DNA of 29,152 nucleotides from a virus, in IMG/VR virus record IMGVR_UViG_3300042540_001594, positions 1 to 29,152 of that record. One strand, 5' to 3'. The notes below the pieces were generated by a model that was not told where the DNA came from, did not search any database, and worked only from the letters and a program-made list of their open reading frames with translations. Position 1 is the stretch's first letter. Every line of letters begins with the position of its first letter. Position numbers and translations under genes: made by a program. Shown here in pieces: positions 1-29,152 of this stretch.

Positions 1-1305
1 TGACAATGTCCCCGTAATTGACCCAGGTGTACTTACCGCTGTATAGCTTGTTATCGGTGAACCACCATTGCTTGATGATGCTGTATATGGAACATCTATT
101 TGTGTACCACTTCCACTAACACGTATTGCTGTACCAATTGTTGGCGCACTTGCTACAAGACCCGCATATATTGAGTTACTTGCTGCACTATTTGGTGAAT
201 CACCCACAGAATTAGTTGCTTTCACTACAAATGTATATTGTGTTCCTTGCGTTAGTCCTGTTACAGTAATTGTTCCACTACTTGCTTGTGATATAGTTCC
301 TGTAATTGACCCAGGTGTACTTACCGCTGTATAGCTTGTTATTGTATTACCACCGTTACTTGATGATGCAGTATAAGGTACGTTAGCTGATGTTGCACTA
401 CCACTTACATTAACAACCGTTCCAATTGTTGGAGCGGTTGGCACAACTGCAGGTGCAATTGAGTTACTTGCTGCACTATTTGGTGAATCTCCTATTGCAT
501 TTGTTGCTTTTACTACAAATGTATAACTAGTTCCTTGTGTCAAACCATTAACACGTATTGTTCCACTACTTGCTTGAGATAATGTCCCTGTTATAGACCC
601 AGGTGTACTTGTAGCAGTATAACTTGTAATAGGTAACCCACCATTACTTGATGATGCTGTATACGGCACATCAAGGGATGTTCCACTACCACTTACACGT
701 ATAACTGTTCCAATAGTAGGTGCTGTTGGTACAATACCTGCAGTAATCGCACTACTTGCTGCACTATTTGGTGAGTCACCTACTACATTAGTAGCTTTTA
801 CTACAAATGTATAACTTGTTCCTTGTGTTAATCCACTTACACGGATAGTTCCACTACTTGCTTGTGAAATAGTGCCTGTAATAGACCCAGGCGTACTTGT
901 CGCTGTATAACTTGTAATAGGTAATCCGCCATCACTTGACGATGCTGTAAAGGGAACATCTATTTCTGTACCACTACCGCTTACGTTCAATGGTGTACCA
1001 ATTGTTGGAGCAGTTGGTACAGTTGCAGGAATGACTGAATTACTTGCTGCACTATTTGGTGAATTACCAACTCCATTTGTTGCATATACTACAAAAGTAT
1101 AAGATGTGCCTTGCGTTAAACCACCTACACGAATAGTTCCACTACTTGCTTGTGATATAGTTCCTGTAATATTACCTGGGTTACTAACCGCTGTATAACT
1201 TGTTATTATTCTACCGCCATTGTTAGCAGAGGCAGTATATGGAACATCAATTTCTGTTCCACTACCGCTCACACGTGCTGCGGTACCAATTGTTGGAGCA
1301 GTTGG
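1..1305 (-). repeat. 288-bp tandem repeats encoding FN3 domains (copy 1)
   Basis: In-frame repeats of 288 bp (96 codons), four complete and one cut by the window edge. The third unit contains a 110-bp stretch (506-615) identical to 4108-4217 in the adjacent paralogue. Because the period is a multiple of three, gain or loss of a unit would keep the frame. Confidence 0.85.
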
Positions 1306-1368
1306 AACAAATACGCTTTCAATGTCTATAAAGCCACTAATTGTTACATTTGCTAGAGTTATACCCAT
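1..1368 (-). CDS. FN3-repeat fibre/adhesin-like protein, C-terminus beyond window
   Basis: The reading frame opens at an ATG (1368-1366) and runs without a stop to base 1, giving 456 codons of an incomplete protein. After a 21-residue N-terminus (MGITLANV...) come four full fibronectin type III-like repeats of about 96 residues and part of a fifth, each beginning near P-T-A-P-T-I-G-T and ending with a Y-T-F-V-V-[YK]-A-T-N strand and N-S-P-N-S-A-A-S. The N-terminus and repeats 1-3 are collinear with the neighbouring gene at 1485-4967, so the pair looks like a tandem gene duplication. By analogy with that gene, a Gly-rich C-terminal module is expected outside the window. FN3 arrays in phages are usually surface-exposed parts of fibres or decorations that contact cells or glycans; the role as a fibre is inferred. 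A late promoter box lies 18 bases upstream of the start. Confidence 0.85.
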   Translation of the reverse strand, partial: MGITLANVTISGFIDIESVFVPTAPTIGTAARVSGSGTEIDVPYTASANNGGRIITSYTAVSNPGNITGTISQASSGTIRVGGLTQGTSYTFVVYATNGVGNSPNSAASNSVIPATVPTAPTIGTPLNVSGSGTEIDVPFTASSSDGGLPITSYTATSTPGSITGTISQASSGTIRVSGLTQGTSYTFVVKATNVVGDSPNSAASSAITAGIVPTAPTIGTVIRVSGSGTSLDVPYTASSSNGGLPITSYTATSTPGSITGTLSQASSGTIRVNGLTQGTSYTFVVKATNAIGDSPNSAASNSIAPAVVPTAPTIGTVVNVSGSATSANVPYTASSSNGGNTITSYTAVSTPGSITGTISQASSGTITVTGLTQGTQYTFVVKATNSVGDSPNSAASNSIYAGLVASAPTIGTAIRVSGSGTQIDVPYTASSSNGGSPITSYTAVSTPGSITGTLS

Positions 1369-1385
1369 TTTATTTTTCTCATTTA

Positions 1386-1393
1386 AATTTATA
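1386..1393 (-). promoter_or_regulatory. T4-type late promoter box TATAAATT
   Basis: Minus-strand TATAAATT differs from the T4 late consensus TATAAATA only at the last base. It ends 17 bases before the ATG at 1368. A start site about six bases downstream leaves a short leader carrying GAGA as a weak ribosome binding site. Confidence 0.5.
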
Positions 1394-1484
1394 TTGCTTT
1401 TCTAATTTCATGCAAAAACATACTATACTGATGTTGCTGCACTAATTTTATAATTTGTAATTGAAATATCATTGTTTATAATCT

Positions 1485-4400
1485 TTATAAAGTTGTATTT
1501 GCAATACCTGTAGATGGATAGGAACGTCCTGTGCCCCATATAATACGCACTGCTCCATTGCCACCTGTACCACCAGGTCCAGGGGTTGCCCCTGTTGTGC
1601 TGCCACCACCACCCCCGTATGTTCCCCCATTCCCCGCACCGTTACCAACACGTGCTGATCCATTCGTGCCACTGCTTCCTCCTGTACCAAAACTTCCTTC
1701 TACAGTTGCACCTACGCCGTTTGGTCCTTGCCCATAGATTCCTACACCACCACCGCCCCCTGCGGATGAAGCTGGATTAATGCTCCATGGAGTAGATTTT
1801 CCACCACCTCCACCACCTCCTGCGCCATTACCACCATTAACAGTAGAATCAGCAGAACCTGCACCACCTGCTCCTGCATAACCACCTGCTCCTGCACCCG
1901 CACCTGCATTACCCCAACATGATGATGCTCCACCACGACCACCCGTTCCACCACCATCACCAACAAAACTTCCACCAAAACCATAAAGACTTGAAGGTAC
2001 ACATCCCCCGCCACCTTGTCCACCATTGCCACTTGCAGTAAGCACAGTGTTAAAATAACTTGGCCCACCACTGCCGCCGCTACTATAAAGACCACCACCG
2101 CCACCACCACCGCCTGCTACTACTGTATAAGATGTATTTGGTATAACATTGATAGTTTTATAACCTAATCCACCTCCACCGCCTCCACCTGAACCACCTT
2201 TTCCTGTTGACATACCACCCGCACCGCCACCTCCTCCACCTACCGTGAGAACACTAATACTTGTTACTCCAAATGGTGCAACCCATGTATATGTTCCTGC
2301 TGTGGTGTACTCAATCTGTGCATTAGCTCCACCATAGGTAATTGAATTACTTGCAGGACTTTGTGGTCCTGCCCCTGCTGCATTAACAGCATATACTTTA
2401 AATGTATATGCTGTGCCTGATGTAAATAAAAAGTTACTTGAATAAGTTATACTACCGCTACTTGCTTGGTTAACAGTGCCTATGATGTTTCCTGGGGTTG
2501 ATATGGCTCTATGACTTGTAATAGTTCCACCATTAGCACCTGCTGCTGTAAATGGCACTGTAATGTTTCCTGAAGAAGTTGTAACTGTTCCTACAGTAGT
2601 TTGTAATGGAACAGCAGCAGAACCTGTTGGGGTTACTGTATTACTTGGGCTTGAAAGTTGCCCATCACCTGCAGAATTTGTAGCATATACTCTAAAAGTA
2701 TAGGGTTGATTACCTACAAATGCTGCATTCATGGTAATAGTGCCACTACTCGCCTGACTTATAGATGCAGTAAAGTTATCGGGATAGCTTACCGCAGTAT
2801 GTGATGTAATCGGTCCGCCACCGTTAGCAGGTGCAGTAAATGGTATAGAAGCTGTACTTCCTGCAAATGAAACTGTACCAACTGTTGCTTGACTTGGAAG
2901 ATTTGATGGAGTTATAACACTAGATGCTGCGCTAGCAGGTGAATTACCCAAACTATTAGTTGCACGTACAACAAACGTGTAAGATGTTCCTGTGGTTAAT
3001 CCTGTTACTGTAATATTACCACTACTTGCTTGTGATACAGTTCCCGTAATTGAACCAGGCGTACTTGTCGCAGTATAGCTAGTAATCGCAAAACCACCAT
3101 CACTTGATGATGCAGTATATCCTACGATTACAGATGTATTACTTAACAAATTCACTGAATTTATAGTCGGAGCAGTTGGTACACTAGCAGGAACAATTGC
3201 AGCACTTTCCGCACTGTTAGGAGAATTTCCTGCACTATTTGTTGCATATACTACAAACGTATAACTTGTTCCTTGTGTCAATCCACTTACACGTATAGTT
3301 CCACTACTTGCTTGTGACAATGTCCCCGTTATTGACCCAGGTGTACTTACCGCTGTATAACTTGTAATTGTTGCGCCACCATTACTCGCTGATGCAGTGT
3401 ATGGCACATCAATCTGTGTGCTACTACCACTTACTCTAGCAGGTGATCCAATTGTCGGTGCATCAGGCACTAGAGCAGGTCTTATTGCAGCACTTGCTGC
3501 ACTATTAGGTGAATTACCAACACTATTTGTTGCATATACAACAAAAGTATAACTTGTTCCTTGTGTTAACCCCGATACAACTATAGTACCACTACTTGCT
3601 TGTGATAATGTTCCTGTTATAGATCCAGGCGTACTAACCGCTGTGTAACTCGTAATTGCGTTACCACCATTACTTGATGATGCAGTATATGGTACATTAA
3701 TTGAAGTACCACTGCCACTAACATTAGTTGGTGTTCCAATAGTTGGCGCAGTTGGCACTACAGCAGGTGATATAGAATTACTTGCCGCACTATTAGGTGA
3801 ATTACCAACGCTATTTGTTGCATATACAACAAACGTATAACTTGTTCCTTGTGTTAACCCCGATACAACAATAGTACCACTACTTGCTTGCGACAATGTC
3901 CCTGTGATTGACCCAGGCGTACTTACCGCTGTATAACTTGTAATTGCGTTACCACCATTACTTGATGATGCAGTATATGGTACATTAATTGAAGTACCAC
4001 TGCCACCCACTCTTGTCGCTGTACCGATTGTTGGAGCAGTTGGTACTACCGCAGGTGCAATTGAATTACTTATAGCACTATTTGGTGAATCACCTACAGC
4101 ATTAGTAGCTTTTACTACAAATGTATAACTAGTTCCTTGTGTCAAACCATTAACACGTATTGTTCCACTACTTGCTTGAGATAATGTCCCTGTTATAGAC
4201 CCAGGTGTACTTGTAGCTGTGTAACTTGTAATTGGAGTACCACCATTACTTGATGATGCAGTATATGGAACATCAAGGGATGTACTACTACCACTTACAC
4301 GTATAACTGTACCAATAGTAGGTGCTGTTGGTACAATACCTGCAACAATTGAACTACTTGCTGCACTATTTGGTGAATCACCTACCGTATTAGTTGCTTT

Positions 4401-4967
4401 TACTACAAATGTATAACTTGTTCCTTGTGTTAGTCCACTTACACGTATTGTTCCACTACTTGCTTGTGATATAGTTCCTGTAATAGACCCAGGCGTACTT
4501 GTCGCTGTATAACTTGTAATAGGTAATCCACCATTACTTGATGATGCTGTGTATGGAACATCTATTTGGGTACCACTACCACTTACATTTAATGGTGTAC
4601 CAATTGTTGGAGCAGTTGGTAATGTAGCAGGAATGACTGAATTACTTGCAGCACTATTTGGTGAATTACCTACTGCATTTGTTGCATAAACAACAAAAGT
4701 ATAAGATGTTCCTGCTGTTAATCCACTAACACGAATGGTTCCACTGCTTGCTTGTGATAATGTTCCTGTTATATTATCAGGTGTGCTTACCGCTGTATAA
4801 CTTGTAATAGGTAATCCACCATTGCTTGATGATGCGGTATAAGGTACATCTATTTGGGTACTACTTCCACTAACACGTGCTGCTGTACCAATTGTTGGTG
4901 CTGTAGGTACAAATACACTTTCTACAGTAAGTCCTGAGAATGTCATTCCATTGAAAGTTAAGCCCAT
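1485..4967 (-). CDS. FN3-repeat and Gly-rich fibre/adhesin-like protein
   Basis: This 1160-residue protein has a 20-residue N-terminus (MGLTFNGM...), nine FN3-like repeats at about residues 21-884 (six of exactly 96 residues, then more divergent ones), and a Gly-rich module at 885-1160. The last module opens with a strand-rich Y-T-[TA]-x-G-T-Y-T-W-V-A-P motif followed by many runs of four to eight glycines, and closes with G-A-V-R-I-I-W-G-T-G-R-S-Y-P-S-T. Such Gly-rich ends occur in tail fibre and adhesin proteins of aquatic T4-like phages. FN3 arrays are typical of extended virion surface proteins. Receptor binding by the Gly-rich end is inferred. The gene follows the 205-aa gene after 11 bases with AAGGTAA as ribosome binding site, so it is probably co-transcribed. 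No signal peptide or membrane segment is visible. Confidence 0.88.
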   Translation of the reverse strand: MGLTFNGMTFSGLTVESVFVPTAPTIGTAARVSGSSTQIDVPYTASSSNGGLPITSYTAVSTPDNITGTLSQASSGTIRVSGLTAGTSYTFVVYATNAVGNSPNSAASNSVIPATLPTAPTIGTPLNVSGSGTQIDVPYTASSSNGGLPITSYTATSTPGSITGTISQASSGTIRVSGLTQGTSYTFVVKATNTVGDSPNSAASSSIVAGIVPTAPTIGTVIRVSGSSTSLDVPYTASSSNGGTPITSYTATSTPGSITGTLSQASSGTIRVNGLTQGTSYTFVVKATNAVGDSPNSAISNSIAPAVVPTAPTIGTATRVGGSGTSINVPYTASSSNGGNAITSYTAVSTPGSITGTLSQASSGTIVVSGLTQGTSYTFVVYATNSVGNSPNSAASNSISPAVVPTAPTIGTPTNVSGSGTSINVPYTASSSNGGNAITSYTAVSTPGSITGTLSQASSGTIVVSGLTQGTSYTFVVYATNSVGNSPNSAASAAIRPALVPDAPTIGSPARVSGSSTQIDVPYTASASNGGATITSYTAVSTPGSITGTLSQASSGTIRVSGLTQGTSYTFVVYATNSAGNSPNSAESAAIVPASVPTAPTINSVNLLSNTSVIVGYTASSSDGGFAITSYTATSTPGSITGTVSQASSGNITVTGLTTGTSYTFVVRATNSLGNSPASAASSVITPSNLPSQATVGTVSFAGSTASIPFTAPANGGGPITSHTAVSYPDNFTASISQASSGTITMNAAFVGNQPYTFRVYATNSAGDGQLSSPSNTVTPTGSAAVPLQTTVGTVTTSSGNITVPFTAAGANGGTITSHRAISTPGNIIGTVNQASSGSITYSSNFLFTSGTAYTFKVYAVNAAGAGPQSPASNSITYGGANAQIEYTTAGTYTWVAPFGVTSISVLTVGGGGGGAGGMSTGKGGSGGGGGGGLGYKTINVIPNTSYTVVAGGGGGGGGLYSSGGSGGPSYFNTVLTASGNGGQGGGGCVPSSLYGFGGSFVGDGGGTGGRGGASSCWGNAGAGAGAGGYAGAGGAGSADSTVNGGNGAGGGGGGGKSTPWSINPASSAGGGGGVGIYGQGPNGVGATVEGSFGTGGSSGTNGSARVGNGAGNGGTYGGGGGSTTGATPGPGGTGGNGAVRIIWGTGRSYPSTGIANTTL
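2316..4907 (-). repeat. Array of nine FN3-coding repeats, ~288-bp period (copy 2)
   Basis: Units run at residues 21-116, 117-212, 213-308, 309-404, 405-500, 501-596, 597-690, 691-786 and 787-884. Units 4 and 5 share a core of about 65 residues that is identical in protein and nearly identical in DNA, the sign of a recent unit duplication. Units 7-9 are diverged. Confidence 0.88.
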
Positions 4968-4978
4968 AATTTGTTACC

Positions 4979-5596
4979 TTATGATCTAGAACCTGTTGAA
5001 GGTCTTGGTGGTCTTGTTATTGTGGTCATGGGACTTTTATTTCCCATCGTAGACATAAATTTTTTCTGATCAAAAGGGTCAAAAGCAGGTTTAGTTCTAT
5101 CTCCTGCATAGGGCATTTCAATCTTATCTTTTTGTTCAGCATTGCGAATACGTGACATATATTGCTCACCATACTCCTTACTAGCTTCTTTACCATCATC
5201 TTCTAATTCTGTGTGATCTAATAAAGGCGTATGACTAGCTTGATTTGCATATTGTTCAGCTTCATGTGTCACACTATCATCATATCCTGCTTGAATCATA
5301 CGAACCATATTCTCATCATAATTTAGTAAACGTGCAATTTGCTTTACCATAGGTTCAGTACATGGATATCTAAATTCAACATCTATAATCCATATCGATT
5401 GATTTTGTAAGTTTGGAAACCCATATGGGTCTTTTTGTATCGGTGTGCTCTTAGGTTCACTGATTTTGACAGGGTCAAATTTCTGTAAGTTAAACATAAA
5501 CATGTCTAACCAATTTTTATTACAGTCTCCTGCAACTTTAATTTTGTAATTGTAAGTGCGTACACTCTCTGTTAAATATTGGCGAAAAGTTTTCAT
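4979..5596 (-). CDS. Probable head-internal or structural protein with capsid-targeting-like N-terminus
   Basis: A 205-residue protein beginning MKTFRQYLTES. This closely matches the N-terminal capsid-targeting sequence of T4 internal head proteins (MKTYQEFIAE, from memory), where the prohead protease gp21 cuts after the glutamate. The equivalent cut here would be after E10. Residues 14-105 look like one alpha/beta domain: a K-I-K-V-A-G strand, a helix W-L-D-M-F-M-F-N-L, a strand I-W-I-I-D-V-E-F and a helix M-V-K-Q-I-A-R-L-L. The C-terminal half is charged and probably disordered, ending in a Pro/Arg/Ser tail. It has its own late promoter box and AGGA as ribosome binding site, and precedes the FN3 gene by 11 bases. 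The function of the body is not recognised; packaging into the head is inferred from the N-terminus alone. Confidence 0.65.
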   Translation of the reverse strand: MKTFRQYLTESVRTYNYKIKVAGDCNKNWLDMFMFNLQKFDPVKISEPKSTPIQKDPYGFPNLQNQSIWIIDVEFRYPCTEPMVKQIARLLNYDENMVRMIQAGYDDSVTHEAEQYANQASHTPLLDHTELEDDGKEASKEYGEQYMSRIRNAEQKDKIEMPYAGDRTKPAFDPFDQKKFMSTMGNKSPMTTITRPPRPSTGSRS

Positions 5597-5616
5597 AAAC
5601 TAAATTCCTGTTAAAT

Positions 5617-5624
5617 TATTTATC
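5617..5624 (-). promoter_or_regulatory. Late promoter box GATAAATA for the 205-aa gene
   Basis: Minus-strand TTGAGATAAATA matches the NATAAATA late consensus of T4-like phages. A start six bases downstream gives a leader of about 15 bases holding CAGGAA before the ATG at 5596. The box overlaps the end of the gp16-like gene by about eight bases (5617-5624 against a stop at 5625-5627, so it directly abuts that stop). Confidence 0.65.
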
Positions 5625-6146
5625 TCAATCGGGTTTTTTGTCTTGGCTGTTTTTATCAAGTAAAGTCTTTAATAACTCATTTCTATCTAGTACTCTACCT
5701 TCTCCAAGATCTTGTTTTTTCAAATTATTTTCTTCTTTTGAATTAACAATGCTTAATTTTCTATCAAGCTCAGCTTTTTTTAACTGCAAATCAATCATTT
5801 TTAGTTTTTTGTTGACTTTAGCAGTCTTGGCTGTGATAGCATGACCCAACATAGAACTAGCCACAGCAAAAATTTCAGCACTAAATCTACTGTCAACTTG
5901 CATACCTAAATTGCTTAAATCATGGAAACTTTCTACTGCTAATTTAGATATTTCATCTAGTTCACCATCACTTGCATCTAACCCTTTTACTTGAGGTAAT
6001 GCATTTTCTACTTTTTCAATCGTGTTCAAAGTATCCTCAGAAATGAGTTCTTTAGGTACAATTTGTGTTTCTTTAATATCATGTTCAGATTCTTCAGGTT
6101 TTTCCTGCGAATCTAATTCAAATAAATCAATAAGACTTTTAGTAAT
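5625..6146 (-). CDS. 16: Small terminase-like protein (gp16-like), AUU start
   Basis: The product (173 residues) resembles T4-type small terminase subunits, which bind DNA as rings and regulate the large terminase gp17 during packaging. It has an acidic N-terminus (T-K-S-L-I-D-L-F-E-L-D), a low-complexity linker, then a helical core with L-A-V-E-S-F-H-D-L and A-E-I-F-A-V-A-S-S-M-L-G-H, followed by a Lys-rich coiled-coil-like segment. That pattern parallels the gp16 central helices, but identity is too low to be certain. The frame is open up to a stop at 6176-6174 and contains no ATG or GTG before the conserved part; the first TTG is at 6029. A strong GGAGAG at 6157-6152 sits five bases before an ATT at 6146-6144, so AUU is the best start. 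No gp17 gene is in the window. Confidence 0.55.
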   Translation of the reverse strand: MTKSLIDLFELDSQEKPEESEHDIKETQIVPKELISEDTLNTIEKVENALPQVKGLDASDGELDEISKLAVESFHDLSNLGMQVDSRFSAEIFAVASSMLGHAITAKTAKVNKKLKMIDLQLKKAELDRKLSIVNSKEENNLKKQDLGEGRVLDRNELLKTLLDKNSQDKKPD

Positions 6147-6151
6147 TTTAA

Positions 6152-6157
6152 CTCTCC
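6152..6157 (-). promoter_or_regulatory. Strong ribosome binding site GGAGAG deciding an AUU start
   Basis: GGAGAG lies five bases upstream of ATT (6146-6144) in the frame of the gp16-like protein. No canonical start codon is available nearby in that frame. Confidence 0.6.
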
Positions 6158-6166
6158 AATATAAAA

Positions 6167-6174
6167 TATTTAGT
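6167..6174 (-). promoter_or_regulatory. Late-promoter-like box ACTAAATA
   Basis: ACTAAATA differs from the NATAAATA consensus at position 2. It lies 20 bases before the proposed AUU start, the same spacing as the better boxes in this window, and the predicted leader would carry GGAGAG. It lies just downstream of the gp4 stop. Confidence 0.4.
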
Positions 6175-6179
6175 TAAAA

Positions 6180-6611
6180 CTACTTTGTACCGTTATGAAA
6201 TATATCAGACTCAGTAACTACTCTAAATTTTAAACCTTTACTTTTACACCAAGCATTTGCTGCTTGCCACTTTGCTGTATTTAAAGCTACAGCTAATTTA
6301 TCTTTTCGTGACTTTGCTTCTGTTATGTAAGCTTGTTTTTTGGGTTTAATTTCAACTACTTCTCCAACAGTTTGCCCATGTTTGTTTTTATATACAATGA
6401 ATACATCAGGTACATAAATTGTTTGTTTACCTGTTAATGGGTTACGATATGGAATTTGTATTGCTTCACTTGCCCATTGTAGTACAGCAGGATTGTTGTC
6501 ACAAAACATAAAAAAAGTCATTTCCCATCCACTTCGATATTTCGGCTTACCATTGCCTACATATTTTTGTGGATTTCTTACTTCATAAATGCCTTGTGCA
6601 TATTTTGCCAT
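6180..6611 (-). CDS. 4: Head completion protein gp4 (nuclease-fold)
   Basis: A 143-residue protein matching the T4 gp4 (gp50/65) head completion family in length and motifs: N-P-x-K-Y near residues 13-17, Y-R-S-x-W-E at 25-30, P-x-V-x-x-W at 41-46, then a PD-(D/E)xK-like nuclease signature with P68-D69, E87 and K89 inside V-V-E-I-K-P-K-K-Q. T4 gp4 acts after DNA packaging to prepare the filled head for tail joining, and the family has a TnsA-like endonuclease fold. Presence of the D-E-K triad suggests that the nuclease centre is intact; activity is inferred. The ATG at 6611 lies three bases after the stop of the preceding gene, so translation is probably coupled. Confidence 0.82.
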   Translation of the reverse strand: MAKYAQGIYEVRNPQKYVGNGKPKYRSGWEMTFFMFCDNNPAVLQWASEAIQIPYRNPLTGKQTIYVPDVFIVYKNKHGQTVGEVVEIKPKKQAYITEAKSRKDKLAVALNTAKWQAANAWCKSKGLKFRVVTESDIFHNGTK

Positions 6612-6614
6612 GCT

Positions 6615-6977
6615 CTACTGTACAACATTTCTTTGCACCGATTGCACAGGACTTAACACATTATTATATCCAAACATTATTGCTTTGTTATCATTGATAC
6701 TATTAAGATAATAAGCCATGGTTAAGTTAATCTGCATGGTTGATGTTGAACTCTTAAAACTTTCTAGCAATGTTAAAACATTGACACCTGTTAAAGTAGC
6801 AATTCTAAATAAATTTACTGTAAATGCTTCACTAGTTTGTTGATCATTAGTAAATTTATTGAAAAAAGAATTGACAATTTCATATTGACCTGCAGGTGGT
6901 TCAATTTGAAAATCATAAAACGCATCATAGATGACGTTTGTTATATCTTGAGTTTGATTGGATACACTTATTGGCAT
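6615..6977 (-). CDS. Conserved small T4-like protein, probably virion-associated
   Basis: This 120-residue protein has no catalytic motif that I recognise. It is mostly helical, with a hydrophobic, Thr/Leu-rich central part (F-R-I-A-T-L-T-G-V-N-V-L-T-L-L-E-S-F) and M-A-Y-Y-L-N-S-I near residue 90. From memory, similar proteins lie beside gp19 and gp4 in T4-like cyanophages, where they are listed as structural or hypothetical. It sits 15 bases after the tube-like gene and three bases before gp4, so it is part of the late structural operon. A possible late-like box CTAAATA lies at 6985-6991. The Cys-free composition is compatible with a virion or assembly role, which remains inference. Confidence 0.6.
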   Translation of the reverse strand: MPISVSNQTQDITNVIYDAFYDFQIEPPAGQYEIVNSFFNKFTNDQQTSEAFTVNLFRIATLTGVNVLTLLESFKSSTSTMQINLTMAYYLNSINDNKAIMFGYNNVLSPVQSVQRNVVQ

Positions 6978-6992
6978 AATATACTATTTAGA

Positions 6993-8099
6993 TCAACCAC
7001 CAGGTAGCCCTGAAGCATTTGTTGGTGTAGTTATATTATTTGCGTTTGATGTGCTTGTGTTTTGAGTTGGCTTAAACGTAGGGAACTTAAAATTAGATGC
7101 TGTATTTACAGCAATTTGCCCTAACCCTGCTGTTAATTCTGCTTTAGCAGCAGCTTTTAAACCTGCTTTACTTAAATTCTTTGATGCAGTAATACCTTTA
7201 ATCGCTGCACCAACAATATTTCCTGCACTTAAATCTTGTTGTATACCTAAAGCAGCATCAATTAATCCACCTTGACCTAATATCGTATTACGTGTACCTG
7301 CTTTTGTAATAGGACTCTTTTCTAAATCATAGTGAGATGCTTGTCCAAAACCTTGTACTATTTGATCAGGACTATTACCATTTAATGCACCATCATAATA
7401 CTTAACATACTCATATCGTATAGACATACGATTTTCCATGGTTGCGTTTGTTTGATAATAATCATAAGTATCATGCTGCCATGAATCAATAATTGGATTA
7501 ACTAATTGATATAAAGCAAAGTTATGTTGGTTAAATCCATAGATGTTAATATTTCTAAAGAATGGAACTTTACCTGTAGTCAATGATACAGTTTGGGGTG
7601 TTGGATTTAATTCTACTCCACTGTATCCCCATTGATCAGGAGGTAATTCAGGTGTATATTGATTGGCTGTTGCTGCTGCACTATTATTTTCATTATTAGG
7701 GTCACCAATATTATAGCTATAATATGCATACCAAAGTTTACGAACTAAGTTACTGTTGTCATCGTGAAATGTAATTTGTACAGGATCATATTTGATTTTT
7801 GTTTGCACAAAACGATGATGGTTATATTGATTTAAATCATGTACATCAAAAGAATATTTTGGCAAATCAACACTTTTTACAGCTAAACCAAAGTTTTTAT
7901 CTGTTGGAAAAAGTGATGCTGTGTTAACAAATTGTTCGTTTATATCAAAGTATACATGAAACAGCCACTTAAATTTTGGTGAATAGCCAAAAGCATTTGT
8001 TACAAATGTTTTTGAAGCATGTGTATAATCTTTTAAAAACTTACGACCGAAGAGTTCCTCGGTCGCACCTTGCAACACCTGTTGAAAGAATCCTGCCAT
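6993..8099 (-). CDS. Tail tube-fold structural protein (gp19/gp54-like)
   Basis: A 368-residue protein. The N-terminus reads M-A-G-F-F-Q-Q-V-L-Q-G-A, followed by F-K-W-L-F-H-V-Y-F-D-I-N, F-G-L-A-V-K-S-V-D-L-P-K-Y-S-F and Y-D-P-V-Q-I-T-F-H-D-D, the pattern of T4 gp19-type tube domains (edge strand, LPxxxF loop, DPVxITFxDD strand pair). The domain recurs in gp19, gp48 and gp54, so this could be the baseplate tail tube initiator gp54 or a second tube-like protein. The last 100 residues are Ala/Asn/Thr-rich and poorly structured, an addition absent from gp19 itself. It follows the real gp19 by 13 bases with no clear ribosome binding site, so translation may be coupled. The assignment to the fold is firm; the exact gp number is not. 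Confidence 0.7.
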   Translation of the reverse strand: MAGFFQQVLQGATEELFGRKFLKDYTHASKTFVTNAFGYSPKFKWLFHVYFDINEQFVNTASLFPTDKNFGLAVKSVDLPKYSFDVHDLNQYNHHRFVQTKIKYDPVQITFHDDNSNLVRKLWYAYYSYNIGDPNNENNSAAATANQYTPELPPDQWGYSGVELNPTPQTVSLTTGKVPFFRNINIYGFNQHNFALYQLVNPIIDSWQHDTYDYYQTNATMENRMSIRYEYVKYYDGALNGNSPDQIVQGFGQASHYDLEKSPITKAGTRNTILGQGGLIDAALGIQQDLSAGNIVGAAIKGITASKNLSKAGLKAAAKAELTAGLGQIAVNTASNFKFPTFKPTQNTSTSNANNITTPTNASGLPGG

Positions 8100-8112
8100 A
8101 ATACTAAACTAA

Positions 8113-8751
8113 TTAACCGCCAACGCCACTTACATTAGTTAATATTTGTCTTGCTACTGCTGCACCAACACCTTGTTGAATACCACTATCAGTTGGTGTT
8201 TGTACTGCATTATCATAACGAATTGTTAATGAAATTGTAACAGGTTCATTTGTTCCATAATTTAAAGTGTTATAGTTTGCATTTTGAATAAAGCAACCAT
8301 AAAGTTCCCAAGTTTCCAAAACTGTTGGAATATGAATACCACCACCTCCATCAAGAATTTGGATGGTAGTTTGAAACTTATAACTGCTACCTGCTGCTGC
8401 ACTTGCTTGTTCTTCAAAATCAAATTGCTTTTGAATTTGTTCACCAACACGCATCGCTACAGCACCCGTTGCATCATCACGTAAGTTCAATGTAATTGCT
8501 TGCCACTCAGGTTTACCTGCCAAATATACACGACTATTATAAATTTCTAAAGGAATCTCAGGAAAACTTACTTGCGGACGTGATACGTCAATAACCTGTT
8601 TAGTAAGTTCAGTAGTAGCTTTGTCAACACCAATATTTTGAAACAATACACGAAAACGATATTGTAACTTTGGCATTAACAAACCTTGACTATCACCTCC
8701 TACATCACTGCCTACAGGCACTGTCATTTTTGAGATTGAAGTAAAACTCAT
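8113..8751 (-). CDS. 19: Tail tube protein gp19
   Basis: A 212-residue protein with the strongly conserved T4-like gp19 signature: G-L-L-M-P-K-L-Q-Y-R-F-R-V, E-L-T-K-Q-V-I-D-V-S-R-P near residue 50, E-I-P-L-E-I-Y-N-S-R-V-Y-L-A-G-K-P-x-W, L-R-D-D-A-T-G, E-Q-I-Q-K-Q-F-D-F, and L-E-T-W-E-L-Y-G-C-F near residue 150. It polymerises as stacked hexamers to form the inner tube of the contractile tail. T4 gp19 is 163 residues, and marine relatives are about 200, so the length is normal for the latter. It has its own late promoter (8772-8779) and TAGGAGA ribosome binding site, separated from gp18 by a hairpin. Confidence 0.92.
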   Translation of the reverse strand: MSFTSISKMTVPVGSDVGGDSQGLLMPKLQYRFRVLFQNIGVDKATTELTKQVIDVSRPQVSFPEIPLEIYNSRVYLAGKPEWQAITLNLRDDATGAVAMRVGEQIQKQFDFEEQASAAAGSSYKFQTTIQILDGGGGIHIPTVLETWELYGCFIQNANYNTLNYGTNEPVTISLTIRYDNAVQTPTDSGIQQGVGAAVARQILTNVSGVGG

Positions 8752-8771
8752 TTTTATTTCTCCTATACTTT

Positions 8772-8779
8772 TATTTATC
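8772..8779 (-). promoter_or_regulatory. Late promoter box GATAAATA for gp19
   Basis: Minus-strand TTTAAGATAAATA. The expected start six bases downstream (about 8766) immediately precedes the TAGGAGA ribosome binding site (8765-8759) of gp19. Box, leader and ribosome site have textbook T4 late spacing. Confidence 0.75.
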
Positions 8780-8784
8780 TTAAA

Positions 8785-8811
8785 TTAGGAACCCAAAATA
8801 TGGGTTCCTAA
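8785..8811 (-). terminator. Strong hairpin after gp18
   Basis: An 11-bp perfect stem, TTAGGAACCCA (8785-8795) with TGGGTTCCTAA (8801-8811), and a five-base loop. On the minus strand it follows the gp18 stop and is trailed by TTTAAG and the gp19 late promoter. The tail of T residues is stronger on the plus strand (TCTTTTTTC). It may terminate or attenuate gp18 transcripts or protect their 3' ends. Confidence 0.7.
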
Positions 8812-8821
8812 TCTTTTTTCA

Positions 8822-12442: not shown

Positions 12443-12488
12443 ATTATTTCTCCTAATGAATAAAAATGAAGCTATACCTCATTAATAT

Positions 12489-12496
12489 TATTTAGG
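12489..12496 (-). promoter_or_regulatory. Possible late promoter box CCTAAATA for gp18
   Basis: Minus-strand CCTAAATA resembles the late box but differs at two positions. It lies 47 bases upstream of the gp18 ATG. It is the only late-like box seen in this gap on the minus strand. Confidence 0.3.
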
Positions 12497-12524
12497 AAAT
12501 TTACTGAAAAAGACCCTGTAATAC

Positions 12525-12540
12525 ACTCTACTAGTAGAGT
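12525..12540. promoter_or_regulatory. 16-bp perfect palindrome between divergent genes
   Basis: ACTCTACTAGTAGAGT is a perfect inverted repeat without loop, between divergent gp18 and the HNH-type gene and seven bases upstream of the plus-strand late box. It may be an operator or a DNA-binding site; nothing else supports this. Confidence 0.4.
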
Positions 12541-12546
12541 TGCGCT

Positions 12547-12554
12547 TATAAATA
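12547..12554 (+). promoter_or_regulatory. Perfect T4 late promoter box TATAAATA
   Basis: An exact TATAAATA match. T4 late transcription starts about six bases after the box, which falls at or next to the ATG at 12560. The mRNA of the HNH-type gene would then have essentially no leader. Confidence 0.65.
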
Positions 12555-12559
12555 GGCAA

Positions 12560-12904
12560 ATGAGACCTATTTGCAAAGTTTGTAACAAAAACCCACGTGC
12601 CCCTGCTTATTATAGGAATGGTAAAAGATATTTTAGAGCACGATGTTCTACTTGTATTTCAGCTAACAAACAATTACCAAAATCCAAACCTAAATGGGAA
12701 CTTAAAGGTTATAAAAAGAAAGTAATTTGTGATGTATGTGGGTTTCGTTCGCAATATAATTCACAAATCACAGTATGGCATATTGATGGCAACTTAAACA
12801 ATACTGAATTAATAAACTTACGCAGTGTATGCTTAAATTGCGTTGAAGTAATTAAGAGAAAGCAGACACTATGGAAAGTTGGCGATCTTCAAGTAGATTA
12901 TTAA
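12560..12904 (+). CDS. HNH-type zinc-binding protein, possible endonuclease
   Basis: A 114-residue protein with four Cys pairs: C5/C8, C29/C32, C57/C60 and C91/C94. The second half, C57-D-V-C60-G-F-R-S, then H74-I-D-G-N78, N81 and N86-L, then C91-L-N-C94, is the zinc-braced HNH-like arrangement in which H and N residues normally hold the catalytic metal. From memory, close relatives are annotated as HNH endonucleases or conserved hypotheticals in T4-like cyanophages. It is not inside an intron and does not interrupt a gene, so a free-standing homing role is possible but unproven. It is the only plus-strand gene between the two minus-strand blocks; its last 53 bases overlap the 3' end of the convergent kinase gene. 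No ribosome binding site precedes the ATG. Confidence 0.7.
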   Translation: MRPICKVCNKNPRAPAYYRNGKRYFRARCSTCISANKQLPKSKPKWELKGYKKKVICDVCGFRSQYNSQITVWHIDGNLNNTELINLRSVCLNCVEVIKRKQTLWKVGDLQVDY

Positions 12905-13514: not shown

Positions 13515-13576
13515 AATACCCTCCACATAAACGTATTATGACATATATATTGCAAAAATAAAGTATATTTGGATTT

Positions 13577-14350: not shown

Positions 14351-14373
14351 AATTTACTCTCAGGTTATGAAAG

Positions 14374-14381
14374 TATTTATT
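14374..14381 (-). promoter_or_regulatory. Late promoter box AATAAATA for gp13
   Basis: Minus-strand AATAAATA fits the NATAAATA late pattern. It overlaps the stop codon of the 58-aa gene and gives a leader of about 18 bases with GAGAG before the gp13 ATG. Confidence 0.55.
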
Positions 14382-15594: not shown

Positions 15595-15595
15595 G

Positions 15596-16756: not shown

Positions 16757-16771
16757 AACCCAACTGTACCT

Positions 16772-16779: not shown

Positions 16780-16800
16780 ATAGAACCACAAAAACTTTCA

Positions 16801-16808: not shown

Positions 16809-16816
16809 TATAAATC

Positions 16817-21386: not shown

Positions 21387-24300
21387 TTATATAGTTGTAT
21401 TAGCAGTATTTGTAGATGGGAATGATCTACCTGTTCCCCATATAATACGTACTGCACCATTTCCACCTCTTTGGAAAGGAACTGCGAGATTTGGTTGTCC
21501 TCCACCCGAACCTCCTCCATAATCACCACCTATACCTGCATTATTTGGTCCAGGATTGCCGCCGTTTGCTCCTCCTGAACCTCCACCTCCACCAACATTT
21601 TGACCTGCCCCTGCACCTGATGGTCCTGATCCATATAAACTTACACCTCCACCACCAGCACCGCTAAACCAACTAGAACCTGCTCCACCACCACCGCCAC
21701 CGCCACCTGAGCCTGCAGTGCCATTAGCGGATGGGTTAGCCACACCACCTGAACCACCTGTTCCGCTGTAGCCACCTGCTCCACCTCCACCGCCACCTTT
21801 TTTATCCGATGGTCCTCCACTATATCCTGCACCACCTACACCCCCATTACCTCCACCATCTCCTGTATATGTACCCGCATTAGTTGTGCATTGAGCAAAT
21901 CCACCGCCACCTCTTACAATACATGTTGAATTAAAATAACTATCTCCACCTGATCCTCCTATAGGAGCAGCCCCTGCAACTACTGTATAACTATTACCTG
22001 CAGTTACAGAAATATTATTTTTATAACCTAATCCTCCGCCTGATCCCCCAGGAATACCACAGTATGCATATGAAGTCGCCCCACCACCGCCACCAACTGC
22101 AACTACACTAACACTTGAAACACCAACGGGTGCAACCCAAGTATAAGTTCCAGGTGTTGTGTATTCAGCTTGTGCATTAGCACCACTATATGTAATTGAA
22201 TTACTTGCAGGACTTTGCGGTCCTGCTCCCGCCCCATTAATTGCATACACCTTAAATGTATAGGATGTTCCTGCAGTAAGTAAAAAGTTATTGCTATAAA
22301 CGATATTACCACTACTTGCTTGATTTACACTTGCTATAACATTACCAGGTGTCGATATCGCTCTATGTTGAGTTATTGTACCTCCATTAGCACATGCTGC
22401 AGTAAAAGGTACTGTCACCGTACCCGTAGAAGTTGTTACTGTTCCTACAGTAGTTTGTAGTGGGTAATTTATTGGTGCACCTGTCACGTTTGTTGATGGA
22501 AAAGCACGTCCTGCTCCCCATAAAATACGTACTGCCCCGTTTCCACCTCTACCATGCTCACCTATACTATTCGTGCATGTACCACCACCGCCACCACCAT
22601 ATAAACCACCCATAGCGTACGATGTACCAGGTGAACCCCCTGATCCTCCATTACCAACCGTGTTATATCCTCCCGAAGGACTTCCGTTTACATGTATGCC
22701 ACCTGCCCCACTTGGTCCTTCACCATAAATTCCTGTACCTCCGCCTGGCTGACCCGCTCCATTACCCGCAGGTGGTGATGCAGTATAACCACCACCACCG
22801 CCACCACCACCGCCACCTGCACCACTACCACCATTACCAAACATACCGCCACCTTGACCGCCTGAGCCTGTATAACCTCCTGCACCACCACCACCTGCTG
22901 ATTGTCTATCGGCTGATAATCCTGGTGAACCACCTCCATTACCACCACCTGATGTGCCATATGAAGTTGATACAACGTACGATCCACCTTGTGAACCTAA
23001 TCCGTTAGCAAATCCCCTCACTCCACCACCTGCACCAGCAGTAGGTATGTTAACAAAGTGACTACACCCACCAGGTGAAGCTGAACCGCCGTTCGTACCG
23101 CCTCCCCCCACAACAACAGTATAGGAAGAATTTGCTGTAACAGGATATCCATTTAACCATACAAGTCCACCCCCGCCTCCGCCACCACCTCTTCTTAATC
23201 CAACACACAGTCTTCCATTACCACCTCCACCCCCACCTATGGCAACTACACTTATGTTAGATACCCCTACAGGCGCAACCCATGAATAGGTACCAGGTGT
23301 TGTATATGTTGCATCATCGTAATTCGGAGCACCTGCGGTTACGGTATTACTATTAGCTGAAATTGGACTATTTCCTATGACATTAGTTGCATATACAGTG
23401 AAAGTATATGCTTGACCTGTAATAAATCCTGAAGAAATTACAATATTTCCACTACTTGCTTGACTTACAGAGGCAGTCAAATTATCAGGATAACTAACTG
23501 CAGTATGTGATGTGATTGGAGGTCCACCATTTGATGGTGCAGTAAATGGTATAGTTGCTACGTTTGCTGAAAAAGATGCTGTTCCTATAGTTGGCTGCGA
23601 TGGAACCGTTCCAGGTATTGCACTATTTGATGCGGCACTATTTGGTGAATTACCTACACTATTTGTTGCATATACCACAAAAGTATAGCTTGTTCCTTGA
23701 GTAAGACCTGTTACAGTAATTGTTCCACTACTTGCTTGTGACACTGTTCCTGTTATTGACCCAGGCGTACTTACCGCTGTATAACTTGTTATTGCATTAC
23801 CACCGTTACTTGACGATGCTGTATAGGTCACAGTTGCAGTTGTCGTATTAATTGGGGTTGCAGTGCCAATTGTTGGAGCAGTTGGTACCACTGCAGGTAT
23901 AATAGAATTACTTGCTGCACTATTTGGCGAATCACCTACGCTATTTGTTGCTTTTACTACAAATGTATAGGAGGTTCCTGCTGTTAATCCACTTACACGT
24001 ATAGTTCCACTGCTTGCTTGTGATATAGTTCCTGTAATAGAGCCAGGAGTGCTTGTCGCTGTATAACTTGTTATTGCATTGCCACCATCACTTGACGATG
24101 CTGTATATGTAACATCAATTTGTGTATTACTTCCGCTTACACGTGATGCTGTTCCAATTGTTGGAGCAGTTGGTACTACTGCAGGTGCGATTGAGTTACT
24201 TGCTGCACTATTAGGCGAATCGCCTACTGAATTAGTTGCTTTTACAATAAAAGTATAACTTGTTCCTTGTGTCAATCCACTTACACGTATTGTTCCACTG

Positions 24301-25097
24301 CTTGCTTGTGATATAGTTCCCGTAATTGATCCAGGTGTACTTGTGGCTGTATAACTTGTTATTGCATTACCACCATTACTTGATGAAGCCGTATATGGCA
24401 CATCAATTTGAGTGCCACTTCCACTTACACGTATTGCTGTACCAATTGTTGGAGCAGTTGGTACTATAGCAGGTGATATAGAATTACTTGCTGCACTATT
24501 TGGTGAATCACCTATCGCATTTGTTGCTTTTACTACAAATGTATAATTTGTACCTGATGTAAGCCCACTTACACGAATCGTTCCACTACTAGCTTGTGAT
24601 ATAGTTCCCGTTATTGAGTCAGGTGTACTCGTAGCCGTATAACTTGTTATAGGAAGACCACCATTGTCAACAGGTGCAGTGTAAGTAATATCAAGTTGAG
24701 TGTTACTTCCACTAACACGTGAAGCAGTGCCAATTGTTGGTGCACTTGGTACGACTGCAGGTATAATAGAATTACTAGCAGCACTATTTGCTGAATTACC
24801 TATACTACTTGTTGCATATACAACAAATGTATAACTTGTCCCTTGTGTTAGTCCACTAACACGAATAGTTCCACTACTTGCTTGTGATATAGAACCTGTA
24901 ATATTATCAGGTGTACTTACTGCTGTATAACTTGTAATAGGTAACCCACCATTACTTGATGATGCAGTATAAGTGATATCAATTTGACTATTACTACCAC
25001 TTACACGTGATGCTGTTCCAATAGTTGGTTCAGATGGAAGATAAAAAACTTCCATCTGCACAGCACCAATAGTTACGTTATTAAATGTTATACCCAT
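21387..25097 (-). CDS. FN3-repeat fibre/adhesin-like protein with two Gly-rich modules
   Basis: A 1236-residue paralogue of the genes at 1-1368 and 1485-4967. Residues 1-20 (MGITFNNV...) match their N-termini. Six FN3-like repeats follow (about 21-592), then a first Gly-rich module (about 593-860) ending in G-A-V-R-I-L-W-G-A-G-R-A-F-P-S-T. A seventh FN3-like repeat starting P-L-Q-T-T-V-G-T is followed by a second Gly-rich module to the end, closing with G-A-V-R-I-I-W-G-T-G-R-S-F-P-S-T. Both Gly-rich modules begin with Y-T-T-P-G-T-Y-[ST]-W-V-A-P-V-G-V. The layout suggests an extended stalk with two binding or folding modules. It lies 26 bases after the 150-aa gene; no strong ribosome site was found before the ATG. 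Likely virion surface fibre, by inference. Confidence 0.88.
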   Translation of the reverse strand: MGITFNNVTIGAVQMEVFYLPSEPTIGTASRVSGSNSQIDITYTASSSNGGLPITSYTAVSTPDNITGSISQASSGTIRVSGLTQGTSYTFVVYATSSIGNSANSAASNSIIPAVVPSAPTIGTASRVSGSNTQLDITYTAPVDNGGLPITSYTATSTPDSITGTISQASSGTIRVSGLTSGTNYTFVVKATNAIGDSPNSAASNSISPAIVPTAPTIGTAIRVSGSGTQIDVPYTASSSNGGNAITSYTATSTPGSITGTISQASSGTIRVSGLTQGTSYTFIVKATNSVGDSPNSAASNSIAPAVVPTAPTIGTASRVSGSNTQIDVTYTASSSDGGNAITSYTATSTPGSITGTISQASSGTIRVSGLTAGTSYTFVVKATNSVGDSPNSAASNSIIPAVVPTAPTIGTATPINTTTATVTYTASSSNGGNAITSYTAVSTPGSITGTVSQASSGTITVTGLTQGTSYTFVVYATNSVGNSPNSAASNSAIPGTVPSQPTIGTASFSANVATIPFTAPSNGGPPITSHTAVSYPDNLTASVSQASSGNIVISSGFITGQAYTFTVYATNVIGNSPISANSNTVTAGAPNYDDATYTTPGTYSWVAPVGVSNISVVAIGGGGGGNGRLCVGLRRGGGGGGGGLVWLNGYPVTANSSYTVVVGGGGTNGGSASPGGCSHFVNIPTAGAGGGVRGFANGLGSQGGSYVVSTSYGTSGGGNGGGSPGLSADRQSAGGGGAGGYTGSGGQGGGMFGNGGSGAGGGGGGGGGGYTASPPAGNGAGQPGGGTGIYGEGPSGAGGIHVNGSPSGGYNTVGNGGSGGSPGTSYAMGGLYGGGGGGTCTNSIGEHGRGGNGAVRILWGAGRAFPSTNVTGAPINYPLQTTVGTVTTSTGTVTVPFTAACANGGTITQHRAISTPGNVIASVNQASSGNIVYSNNFLLTAGTSYTFKVYAINGAGAGPQSPASNSITYSGANAQAEYTTPGTYTWVAPVGVSSVSVVAVGGGGGATSYAYCGIPGGSGGGLGYKNNISVTAGNSYTVVAGAAPIGGSGGDSYFNSTCIVRGGGGFAQCTTNAGTYTGDGGGNGGVGGAGYSGGPSDKKGGGGGGAGGYSGTGGSGGVANPSANGTAGSGGGGGGGGAGSSWFSGAGGGGVSLYGSGPSGAGAGQNVGGGGGSGGANGGNPGPNNAGIGGDYGGGSGGGQPNLAVPFQRGGNGAVRIIWGTGRSFPSTNTANTTI
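23322..25037 (-). repeat. Array of six FN3-coding repeats, ~288-bp period (copy 3)
   Basis: Units start at residues 21, 117, 213, 309, 405 and 499. The first four are 96 residues, the fifth 94. Units 3 and 4 resemble units of the left-hand paralogues closely. The sixth, opening P-S-Q-P-T-I-G, is the diverged type seen as unit 8 of copy 2. Confidence 0.85.
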
Positions 25098-25696: not shown

Positions 25697-28600
25697 TTAT
25701 GAATTTACACCTTTGATTACAGCAAATTGAAGCACAGGAGCTTCTGTTGTAGTCCCACCTGTTGTGTAAAAAGTAATATCAAAACTACTCGCCGCAACAT
25801 TAGTAACAAAAGTTAAATATTTGTCAGTTCCCGATTTTTGATTTACAATAACTACATCAGTAGCAGCAACGGTATTATTAGTAACAGTAAATGTATTTGG
25901 AGTGGTTGATCCTGCAGCAGAAAATAAAGTAATTGCTCCTGTAATTTTATTTAATGTGACCCCGTTAGCTCTTGAAGTAATTTGACCTATTGTTCCACCT
26001 GCACCTGTTACGTATCCAATTTGACTAGTAGCATTAAATATGTTCGCACTAATTACATTAGCACCGCTAATATTTCCACCTGATCCTGCCCCTGTCACAA
26101 GATTTGATGCAGTTAATGTACCTGAAACATTAACACCTGTGCCTGTAACTACAACCACATTAGCATTACCTGCTGCACTTAAATTAATATTTCCATTAGC
26201 CGCAGGTATTGATACATTACTATTGCCATTGCTGATACTACTTGTGCTAATTGTTGTCCAACTTAAATTACCACTGCCATTTGTTGTTAAAATTTGACCA
26301 TTACTACCGCCTGTAATAATGACATTACCAACTGCACCAAGATTTGATATTCCTGCTACACTTATACCCGCACCTGAAACAACTAATACATTAGCATTAC
26401 CTGCTGAACTAATATTAACGTTGCCATTGGCTGCAGGTATTGATACGTTACTATTGCCATTACTAATACTACTTGTGCTAATTGTTGTCCAACTTAAATT
26501 ACCGCTACCATTGGTGCTAAGTACTTGACCATTACTACCACCTGTAATAATAACATTACCTACTGCACCAAGATTTGATACACCTGCTACATTCAGTGTA
26601 ATCGCAACATTCATCGTATTAGCACTAATTATATTAGCACCGCTAATATTTCCACCTGATCCTGCACCTGTCACTAGATTTGATGCAGTTAATGTACCTG
26701 CGACATTAACGCCTGTACCTGATACAACAACCACGTTGGCATTGCCTGATGCACTTAAATTAATATTTCCATCTGCAGTAGGTATCGATACGTTACTATT
26801 GCCATTATTAATACTTGATGAACTAAATGATACCCAGCTTAAATTTCCGCTGCCATTTGTACTAAGAACTTGACCATTACTGCCACCTGTAATAATTACA
26901 TTGCCTACTGCACCAAGATTTGATACACCTGCCACATTTAACGCAGTTGCTGCATTTACTGTATTGGCACTGAGAACATTTACCCCTGAAACATTACCGC
27001 CTGTTCCACCACCTGCTACAATACTTAATGCAGTTAATGTACCTGAGACATTTACACCTGTACCTGTTACAACAACAACATTAGCGTTACCTGCTGAACT
27101 AATATTAACGTTCCCATTAGCAGCAGGTATAGACACATTACTATTGCCATTACTAATACTTGATGAACTAATTGATACCCAACTTAAATTTCCACTTCCA
27201 TTTGTGCTTAATACCTGTCCATTACTACCACCTGTAATAATGACATTGCCTACTGAACCAAGGTTTGATACACCTGCTATATTCAGTGTAGTAGAAACAT
27301 TCAATGTATTAGCACTAATTACATTTGCACCACTAATATTTCCACCTGATCCTGCCCCTGCAGTTATTCCTGAAGTAGTAACAACTATTACATTTGCAGT
27401 ACCCCCAACTGACATAGTAATATTTCCATTTGCAGCAGGTATGCTGACATTGCTATTGCCATTACTAATACTACTTGTGTTAATTGTTGTCCAACTTAAA
27501 TTACCACTACCATTTGTACTGAGTACTTGACCGTTACTGCCCCCCGTAATAATTACATTACCCACTGCACCAAGATTTGATACTCCTGATACACTTAAAG
27601 AACCTACTGCCAACGGAGCTAAAGTTGCATTAGCAAAGTCAATAATAGTATTTGGTTGTACAGCTAAATCTGTAAATAATTTCCATGTACGGTTAGCGTC
27701 ACTAGCATCTCGTGCAAATCCTGTGAATTTTTCAGCACCATCATTATATTCGCCAACAAATCCTAAATCTACAGTATCACCTGAATTATTAGCACCAATA
27801 AATATCAACGGATCGCCAACAACTAAATCAGTTACATTAGAATAATTTAAATTACCACTAATAGTCATATTACCTGTTATTGATACATTTCCTGTTATAT
27901 TGGCACCACCTGCTGATATTGTAAATCCATTACCTACAACTATATTACCTGTTGTTGTTAAATTTGATAATATTCCAATACTTGTTATATTTGGTTGAGA
28001 AGCAGTAGTCAATGTGCCTGTTAAATAATTAGCTGTTACCGTATTGCCTAAGTTAGCATTAGATGCAGTAATCGTACCTGCAATATTTGCACCAATTCCT
28101 GTAACAACTAATATGTTAGAATTACCCGCTACGCTAATATTAACATTACCATTAGCTGCAGGTATATTTACATTACTATTACCATTTGAAACACTTGTTC
28201 CACTTGGCAAACCCGTTAATTGACTACCATTACCTAAGAAATATGAAGCAGTTACGTTTGCACTGAAATTACCTGTATTAGCACTAACTACATTAGCACC
28301 GCTAATATTTCCACCTGATCCTGCTCCCGCAGTTATTCCTGAAGTAGTAACAACTATGACATTTGCAGTACCCCCTACTGACATAGTAATATTACCGTTA
28401 GCAGCAGGTATGCTGACATTACTGTTGCCATTGCTAATACCACTTGCACTTAAGGTAACCCAACTTAAGTTTCCACTACCATTAGTGGATAAAAATTGTC
28501 CATTACTTCCACCTGTAATAATTACGTTAGCATTAGAGCCAAGATTAGATACACCTGCTACATTTAAAGCTACCGCAGCATTAACAGTATTGGCACTGAG

Positions 28601-29152
28601 AACATTAACCCCTGTAATATTACCGCCTGAACCCCCGCCTGTAACAATACTTGTTGCATTTAACGTACCTGTAACATTTACACCATTGCCTGTAACAACA
28701 ACTACATTGGCATTACCCGCTGAACTAATGTTTACATTACCATTTGCAGCAGGTATAGACACATTACTATTACCATTACTAATACTTGAGGAACTAAATG
28801 ATACCCAACTTAAATTTCCACTTCCATTTGTACTAAGAACTTGACCATTACTGCCACCTGTAATAATTACGTTGCCAACAGGTCCTAAGTTCGATACGCC
28901 TGTAGCTATAAGTCCTGTAGTACCAATATTTCCTACATTTGCGTTACCTGAAACATTTAATGTTCCTGTAACATTAGCACCCGTACCTGTTACAACAACA
29001 ATATTAGCATTACCTGCTGAACTAATATTAACGTTGCCATTGGCTGCAGGTATTGATACGTTACTATTGCCATTACTAATACTTGATGAACTAATTGATA
29101 CCCAACTTAAATTTCCACTTCCATTTGTACTAAGAACTTGACCATTACTGCC
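25697..29152 (-). CDS. Asn/Gly/Ser-rich repeat fibre protein, N-terminus beyond window
   Basis: The frame is open from the right edge (base 29152) to the stop at 25699-25697, at least 1151 residues. An in-frame GTG at 28762 is inside a repeat and is not a credible start. The protein is built of repeats of about 80-115 residues with S-I-S-N-G-N-S-N-V-S-I-P-A-A-N-G-N, a V-V-V-T-G-[TN]-G-V-N-V strand, and G-G-S-N-G-Q-V-L-S-T-N-G-S-G-N-L-S-W; the last motif occurs eight times. One interruption (about 27640-27835) holds D-P-L-I-F-I-G-A-N-N and D-L-G-F-V-G-E-Y-N-D-G-A-E-K, a domain recurrent in marine T4-like phage fibres. The last 100 residues (from G-Y-V-T-G-A-G-G-T-I-G-Q) form a separate end domain. 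Likely a trimeric beta-structured tail fibre, inferred from composition and context. Confidence 0.82.
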   Translation of the reverse strand, partial: GSNGQVLSTNGSGNLSWVSISSSSISNGNSNVSIPAANGNVNISSAGNANIVVVTGTGANVTGTLNVSGNANVGNIGTTGLIATGVSNLGPVGNVIITGGSNGQVLSTNGSGNLSWVSFSSSSISNGNSNVSIPAANGNVNISSAGNANVVVVTGNGVNVTGTLNATSIVTGGGSGGNITGVNVLSANTVNAAVALNVAGVSNLGSNANVIITGGSNGQFLSTNGSGNLSWVTLSASGISNGNSNVSIPAANGNITMSVGGTANVIVVTTSGITAGAGSGGNISGANVVSANTGNFSANVTASYFLGNGSQLTGLPSGTSVSNGNSNVNIPAANGNVNISVAGNSNILVVTGIGANIAGTITASNANLGNTVTANYLTGTLTTASQPNITSIGILSNLTTTGNIVVGNGFTISAGGANITGNVSITGNMTISGNLNYSNVTDLVVGDPLIFIGANNSGDTVDLGFVGEYNDGAEKFTGFARDASDANRTWKLFTDLAVQPNTIIDFANATLAPLAVGSLSVSGVSNLGAVGNVIITGGSNGQVLSTNGSGNLSWTTINTSSISNGNSNVSIPAANGNITMSVGGTANVIVVTTSGITAGAGSGGNISGANVISANTLNVSTTLNIAGVSNLGSVGNVIITGGSNGQVLSTNGSGNLSWVSISSSSISNGNSNVSIPAANGNVNISSAGNANVVVVTGTGVNVSGTLTALSIVAGGGTGGNVSGVNVLSANTVNAATALNVAGVSNLGAVGNVIITGGSNGQVLSTNGSGNLSWVSFSSSSINNGNSNVSIPTADGNINLSASGNANVVVVSGTGVNVAGTLTASNLVTGAGSGGNISGANIISANTMNVAITLNVAGVSNLGAVGNVIITGGSNGQVLSTNGSGNLSWTTISTSSISNGNSNVSIPAANGNVNISSAGNANVLVVSGAGISVAGISNLGAVGNVIITGGSNGQILTTNGSGNLSWTTISTSSISNGNSNVSIPAANGNINLSAAGNANVVVVTGTGVNVSGTLTASNLVTGAGSGGNISGANVISANIFNATSQIGYVTGAGGTIGQITSRANGVTLNKITGAITLFSAAGSTTPNTFTVTNNTVAATDVVIVNQKSGTDKYLTFVTNVAASSFDITFYTTGGTTTEAPVLQFAVIKGVNS
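26280..29152 (-). repeat. Direct repeats coding the G-G-S-N-G-Q fibre motif
   Basis: Eight copies of the coding stretch for GGSNGQ and GNLSW, at about 29140, 28855, 28510, 27540, 27230, 26885, 26540 and 26298. Spacings are about 240-350 bp apart from one gap of about 970 bp holding unique sequence. Many copies are nearly identical in DNA, suggesting exchange between units. Confidence 0.8.

Follow-up and report, generated by a model that had tools for sequence, protein, structure and literature searches.

The window analysed here is a viral contig of 29,152 bp (G000). It carries genes for a tail sheath, a tail tube, a gp15-like sheath stabiliser, head closure and the neck, a gene content that points to a T4-like myovirus. 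The tail sheath protein (8822-12442) is long, at 1206 aa, and its closest named relatives, over partial coverage only, belong to Agrobacterium phage Atu_ph07, Sinorhizobium phage Phosso and relatives of Pseudomonas phage PA5oct.

FN3 stalks and glycine-rich tips of three paralogous genes

A preliminary description of this DNA had pictured two fibre genes built of FN3 repeats. Both are present, but a third paralogue had been overlooked, and the glycine-rich tips, likely the functional part, had gone unmentioned. The genes and their parts are as follows.

1..1368, minus strand: gene A; leader, four full FN3 units and a partial fifth; runs off the contig
1485..4967, minus strand: gene B; leader, nine FN3 domains and one glycine-rich tip; 1160 aa
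1485..2612, minus strand: module of gene B, FN3 plus glycine-rich tip
3471..4046, minus strand: units B4 and B5 of gene B, a younger tandem pair
21387..25097, minus strand: gene C, the third paralogue; seven FN3 domains and two glycine-rich tips; 1236 aa
22467..23606, minus strand: first module of gene C, FN3 plus glycine-rich
21387..22466, minus strand: second (C-terminal) module of gene C, FN3 plus glycine-rich

Each gene opens with a leader of ~20 residues, followed by 96-residue FN3 domains, of which a profile search counts 5 in A, 9 in B and 7 in C. The PF00041 (FN3) matches score 98, 181.7 and 150.1 bits against a curated cut-off of 25, the profile E-values range from 4e-28 to 3e-54, and the sequence profile also matches the FN3 structures of titin and fibronectin. 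A two-domain structure model (pLDDT 88.6) is all-beta, with the beta-sandwich expected of PF00041. The proposal that 288-bp units form tandem arrays was confirmed by the unit coordinates and by a TRF repeat period of 288: units A1-A4, B1-B6 and C1-C4 measure 288 bp, or 96 codons, and B7 and C5 measure 282 bp. The gene proposed at 1-1368 does exist as an FN3 gene, but it is incomplete, being cut by the contig end, and any tip of its own would lie beyond that end; tips are seen in B and C. Units B4 and B5 are 89% identical (dS 0.36), share a 67-bp exact match (3652-3718 = 3940-4006) and represent a younger unit duplication within B. When gene B was compared with sequenced phage records, no close relatives were found, only seven weak FN3 matches.

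One tip module, consisting of an FN3 domain and a glycine-rich part, ends gene B, and two are found in gene C. Alignment of five such modules, two of them from the locus L096, revealed a conserved glycine framework with variable stretches in between. Gene C matches PF21722 (Gly_rich_2; cut-off 24.3 bits) with 28.6 bits and gene B with 25.6 bits, counted with its neighbours; the tips also match phrog_4474. The AlphaFold model of the tip is of low confidence (pLDDT 56); among solved structures, Foldseek ranked the Bxb1 tail tip highest and the Pam3 fibre second (7ypx; E 1.6e-4, TM 0.33/0.47). Because the model is weak, this match is only suggestive of a resemblance to the receptor-binding tip of the cyanophage Pam3 fibre. 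Variation between conserved framework positions might also be expected if a diversity-generating retroelement, or another dedicated system, varied the tips. However, no reverse transcriptase (PF00078) was found in the window or in the contigs G001, G002, G003 and G021, all of them possibly fragments, and we regard such a system as extremely improbable.

Proteins with comparable tips have been described. In Pam3, the glycine-rich domain was proposed as the receptor binder (PMC9608196). Pam3 gp24 (TNF-like plus glycine-rich; PDB 7ypx) resembles the proteins described here in having a C-terminal glycine-rich tip behind a beta domain, and the distal ends are variable in both. It differs in that an N-terminal helical domain docks gp24 to the baseplate, where FN3 repeats stand in our proteins. 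For Pam3, a dedicated chaperone has also been shown. In the polyglycine sandwich of S16-type gp38 of T-even phages, variable loops on the glycine-rich motifs are considered host-range determinants (PMC6851490), and the tips here likewise have glycine-rich motifs separated by variable segments. S16 gp38, however, is a separate protein with a beta-helix, anchored on gp37 by an N-terminal helical bundle. In the proteins described here, tip and FN3 repeats form a single chain, the glycine-rich part coming after the FN3 domains, and the models contain no helices. In haloarchaeal hafunaviruses, the consulted part of one report (PMC8651126) describes a glycine-rich tail adhesin, encoded in a variable region, as deciding host range; these viruses belong to a different group, and an FN3 stalk and repeat exchange are not described in that part. 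Genes of uncultured Caudovirales (BFVD entries; IMG/VR loci L132-L207) show the same pairing of FN3 and glycine-rich domains, often with several genes side by side. Their tip genes mostly hold 0-2 FN3 domains, unlike B with nine and C with seven. Of 83 loci that match FN3 or the tip, 19 carry two or more tip-bearing ORFs (tips were counted by a simple motif, which gives a lower bound), and most tip-bearing ORFs again hold 0-2 FN3 domains. By analogy with Pam3, S16 gp38 and the hafunaviruses, the tips of B and C are candidate receptor binders.

The block shared by genes A and B

Genes A and B share an exact tract, which lies within a longer region of high similarity.

506..615, minus strand: 110-bp exact tract in unit A3
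4108..4217, minus strand: 110-bp exact tract in unit B3
445..1068, minus strand: young block in gene A, end of unit 1 and units 2-3; limits approximate
4047..4670, minus strand: young block in gene B, partner of 445-1068; limits approximate

The tract had been reported as 110 bp with zero mismatches and unlike flanks, and it proved to be exactly so. It is the longest exact direct repeat of the window, and its copies occupy the equivalent position in A3 and B3. Units 1-3 of the two genes are also colinear and have the motifs TAARV, TPLNV and TVIRV in common, as had been noted. The tract is not isolated but embedded in a young block of ~620 bp: in 48-bp bins, A-B identity is 83-100% from the end of unit 1 through unit 3 and 69% at the start of unit 4. 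The dS between A and B is 0.83 in unit 1, 0.27 in unit 2, 0.27 in unit 3 and 0.94 in unit 4; the median for all unit pairs is 0.76. In the unit tree, A2+B2 (97/98) and A3+B3 (100/99) form strong pairs, A1+B1 pair weakly (84/76) and are then joined weakly by C1, and A4 and B4 are unpaired. For units 1-5, permutation of A-B codon matches gave P = 1e-5; restricted to units 2-3 it gave 0.003, and restricted to unit 3, 4e-4.

The permutation test, the unit tree and dS all support the local exchange between A and B that the preliminary description had proposed. They do not bear out its "recent gene duplication", since units 1 and 4 are as diverged as unit pairs generally. Equal divergence of all units, which had been named as a pattern that would speak against exchange, is likewise not what we see, with dS of 0.27 in units 2-3 against 0.83 and 0.94 in units 1 and 4. 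Because dS is low in units 2-3 only and units 1 and 4 lie near the general median, with the unit tree in agreement, we infer that the duplication that founded the A/B family is old and that units 2-3 were homogenised later, leaving only the ~620-bp block young. The 110-bp patch, younger than the block around it, probably came last.

A simple recent duplication of one fibre gene, with rapid divergence producing the differences outside units 2-3, would fit the leader common to both genes, the colinear units 1-3 and the weak pairing of A1 with B1. Against it, dS in units 1 and 4 is triple that of units 2-3, and fast protein change would not raise dS. The course of dS along the gene rejects a recent whole-gene duplication, and we consider this account improbable. 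Alternatively, the source of units 2-3 in A or in B could be a related phage that shared the cell and recombined with this one, rather than the sister gene. Recombination is common among phages, and other contigs carry related FN3 genes; yet the block matches the sister gene of the same genome at the same unit position, and among the loci compared no outside sequence matches better. An outside donor is therefore unlikely, and exchange between the sister genes A and B is the reading we follow.

Short-read assembly can be misled by repeats of 110 bp, and FN3 units are where the window, G002 and G021 break off, features that could suggest that the tract or the second gene arose from misjoined repeat reads. 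Two further IMG/VR contigs, G001 and G002, come from the same phage as the window. Both genes and the tract are present on G002, which departs from the window at a single SNP in 22,371 bp; G001, spanning window positions 3456-22442, has the same single difference. Since both genes stand on this separate contig, gene B is not an assembly artefact, and an assembly origin of the pattern as a whole is very improbable. In gene C, G002 and the window differ by one base. An exact search of IMG/VR with the last 60 bases of the window gave zero matches.

Exact stretches of 84 and 64 bp also occur between otherwise diverged FN3-array genes in the loci L141 and L199; unit exchange is therefore not unique to the window phage. 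Long ORF-to-ORF "repeats" in L133, L148-L151 and L158, situated at ORF ends and 100% identical, were rejected and left uncounted because they are likely the same DNA in overlapping stop-to-stop frames.

Empty sites, a gene remnant and deletions in gene D

The 136.9-kb relative G003, at about 80-85% DNA identity, has the neighbours of gene C without C between them, and it lacks A and B between a 205-aa gene and a 1134-aa gene. Both sites are cleanly empty, and their junctions coincide with gene boundaries. The A/B site is likewise empty in L012. A profile search of G003 gave no Gly_rich_2 match. Elsewhere, between its tail tube and sheath genes, G003 has an additional 537-aa ORF (L089:17765-19378), endonuclease-like by eye, which is absent there in the window. 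Two other Gly_rich_2 (PF21722) genes occur in G006 (L090:10540-12730), separated by a few genes from the 173-aa gene, which in the window is a neighbour of C.

The other side of the A/B site is covered by G021 (73.7 kb). Its last gene is an FN3 fibre gene with two tips, adjoining the gene that comes after the site in G003. The end of this contig (L096) and the end of the window overlap by 104 bp at 97%, with three differences, all silent; other units reach at best 89/104. Because the identity is 97% and not 100%, the G021 gene would be either the remainder of gene A, which is possible, or its counterpart in a sister phage. Behind this intact gene, at L096:3039-3280, the start of a further FN3 gene survives as a frameshifted remnant, aligned with a score of 58 compared with a shuffled maximum of 32. 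Together, A, B, C and the remnant copy point to a birth-and-death process among candidate adhesin genes, which occupy two sites flanked by core genes.

Close upstream of C lies another gene that is also built of repeats.

25697..29152, minus strand: gene D, neighbouring repeat gene, without 231 bp and 297 bp relative to G001/G002

The deletion junctions lie at 26391-26406 and 27219-27274 in the window, with junction identities of 16 bp and 56 bp, and both missing lengths are multiples of three and thus in frame. G001 and G002, the reference for this comparison, agree at 99.99% over 9,557 bp. Assembly word lengths usually exceed 16 bp, so that a collapse at the shorter junction would be unexpected. 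The near-identical contigs differ by only a handful of SNPs outside the altered part of gene D, compared with two in-frame deletions within it. A frame-keeping change of unit number had been predicted for the FN3 genes. No gain or loss of an FN3 unit was found in the overlaps of the window, G001 and G002; the predicted behaviour is seen instead in the adjacent gene D. Between D and C, a 150-aa protein (25124-25576) matches phrog_7759, of unknown function, and could, by its position, be a fibre chaperone.

Proposed turnover of candidate adhesin genes

We propose, with a probability of roughly 0.7, that A, B and C are accessory host-binding adhesins that form a birth-and-death family and exchange units by in-frame recombination. 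Each protein has a short N-terminal leader and an FN3 stalk, followed, as seen in B and C, by one or two distal glycine-rich tips. Displayed on the virion, tips in the style of Pam3 gp24 or S16 gp38 would contact the host surface. Because the stalk is made of 288-bp units, homologous recombination between units would keep the reading frame. By this probable route, a block of two units would have passed between A and B, the 110-bp tract being the most recent patch, and one unit would have been duplicated within B; the phage may benefit from the altered stalks or tips. A broader notion is that in-frame recombination uses the FN3 arrays and gene D's repeats as handles, so that within populations this phage alters its fibre length and exchanges glycine-rich tips among paralogues about as fast as point mutation acts; this is speculative and rather doubtful.

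The exchange between paralogues itself is real and relatively well dated; it is ordinary in kind and a clear example of a known route of evolution. With empty sites, a dead copy, a dated exchange and in-frame repeat change nearby, the locus offers a readable case of a phage reshaping its probable host-binding proteins. If unit exchange is frequent, it would provide an alternative to point mutation and retroelements for altering fibre reach and receptor choice.
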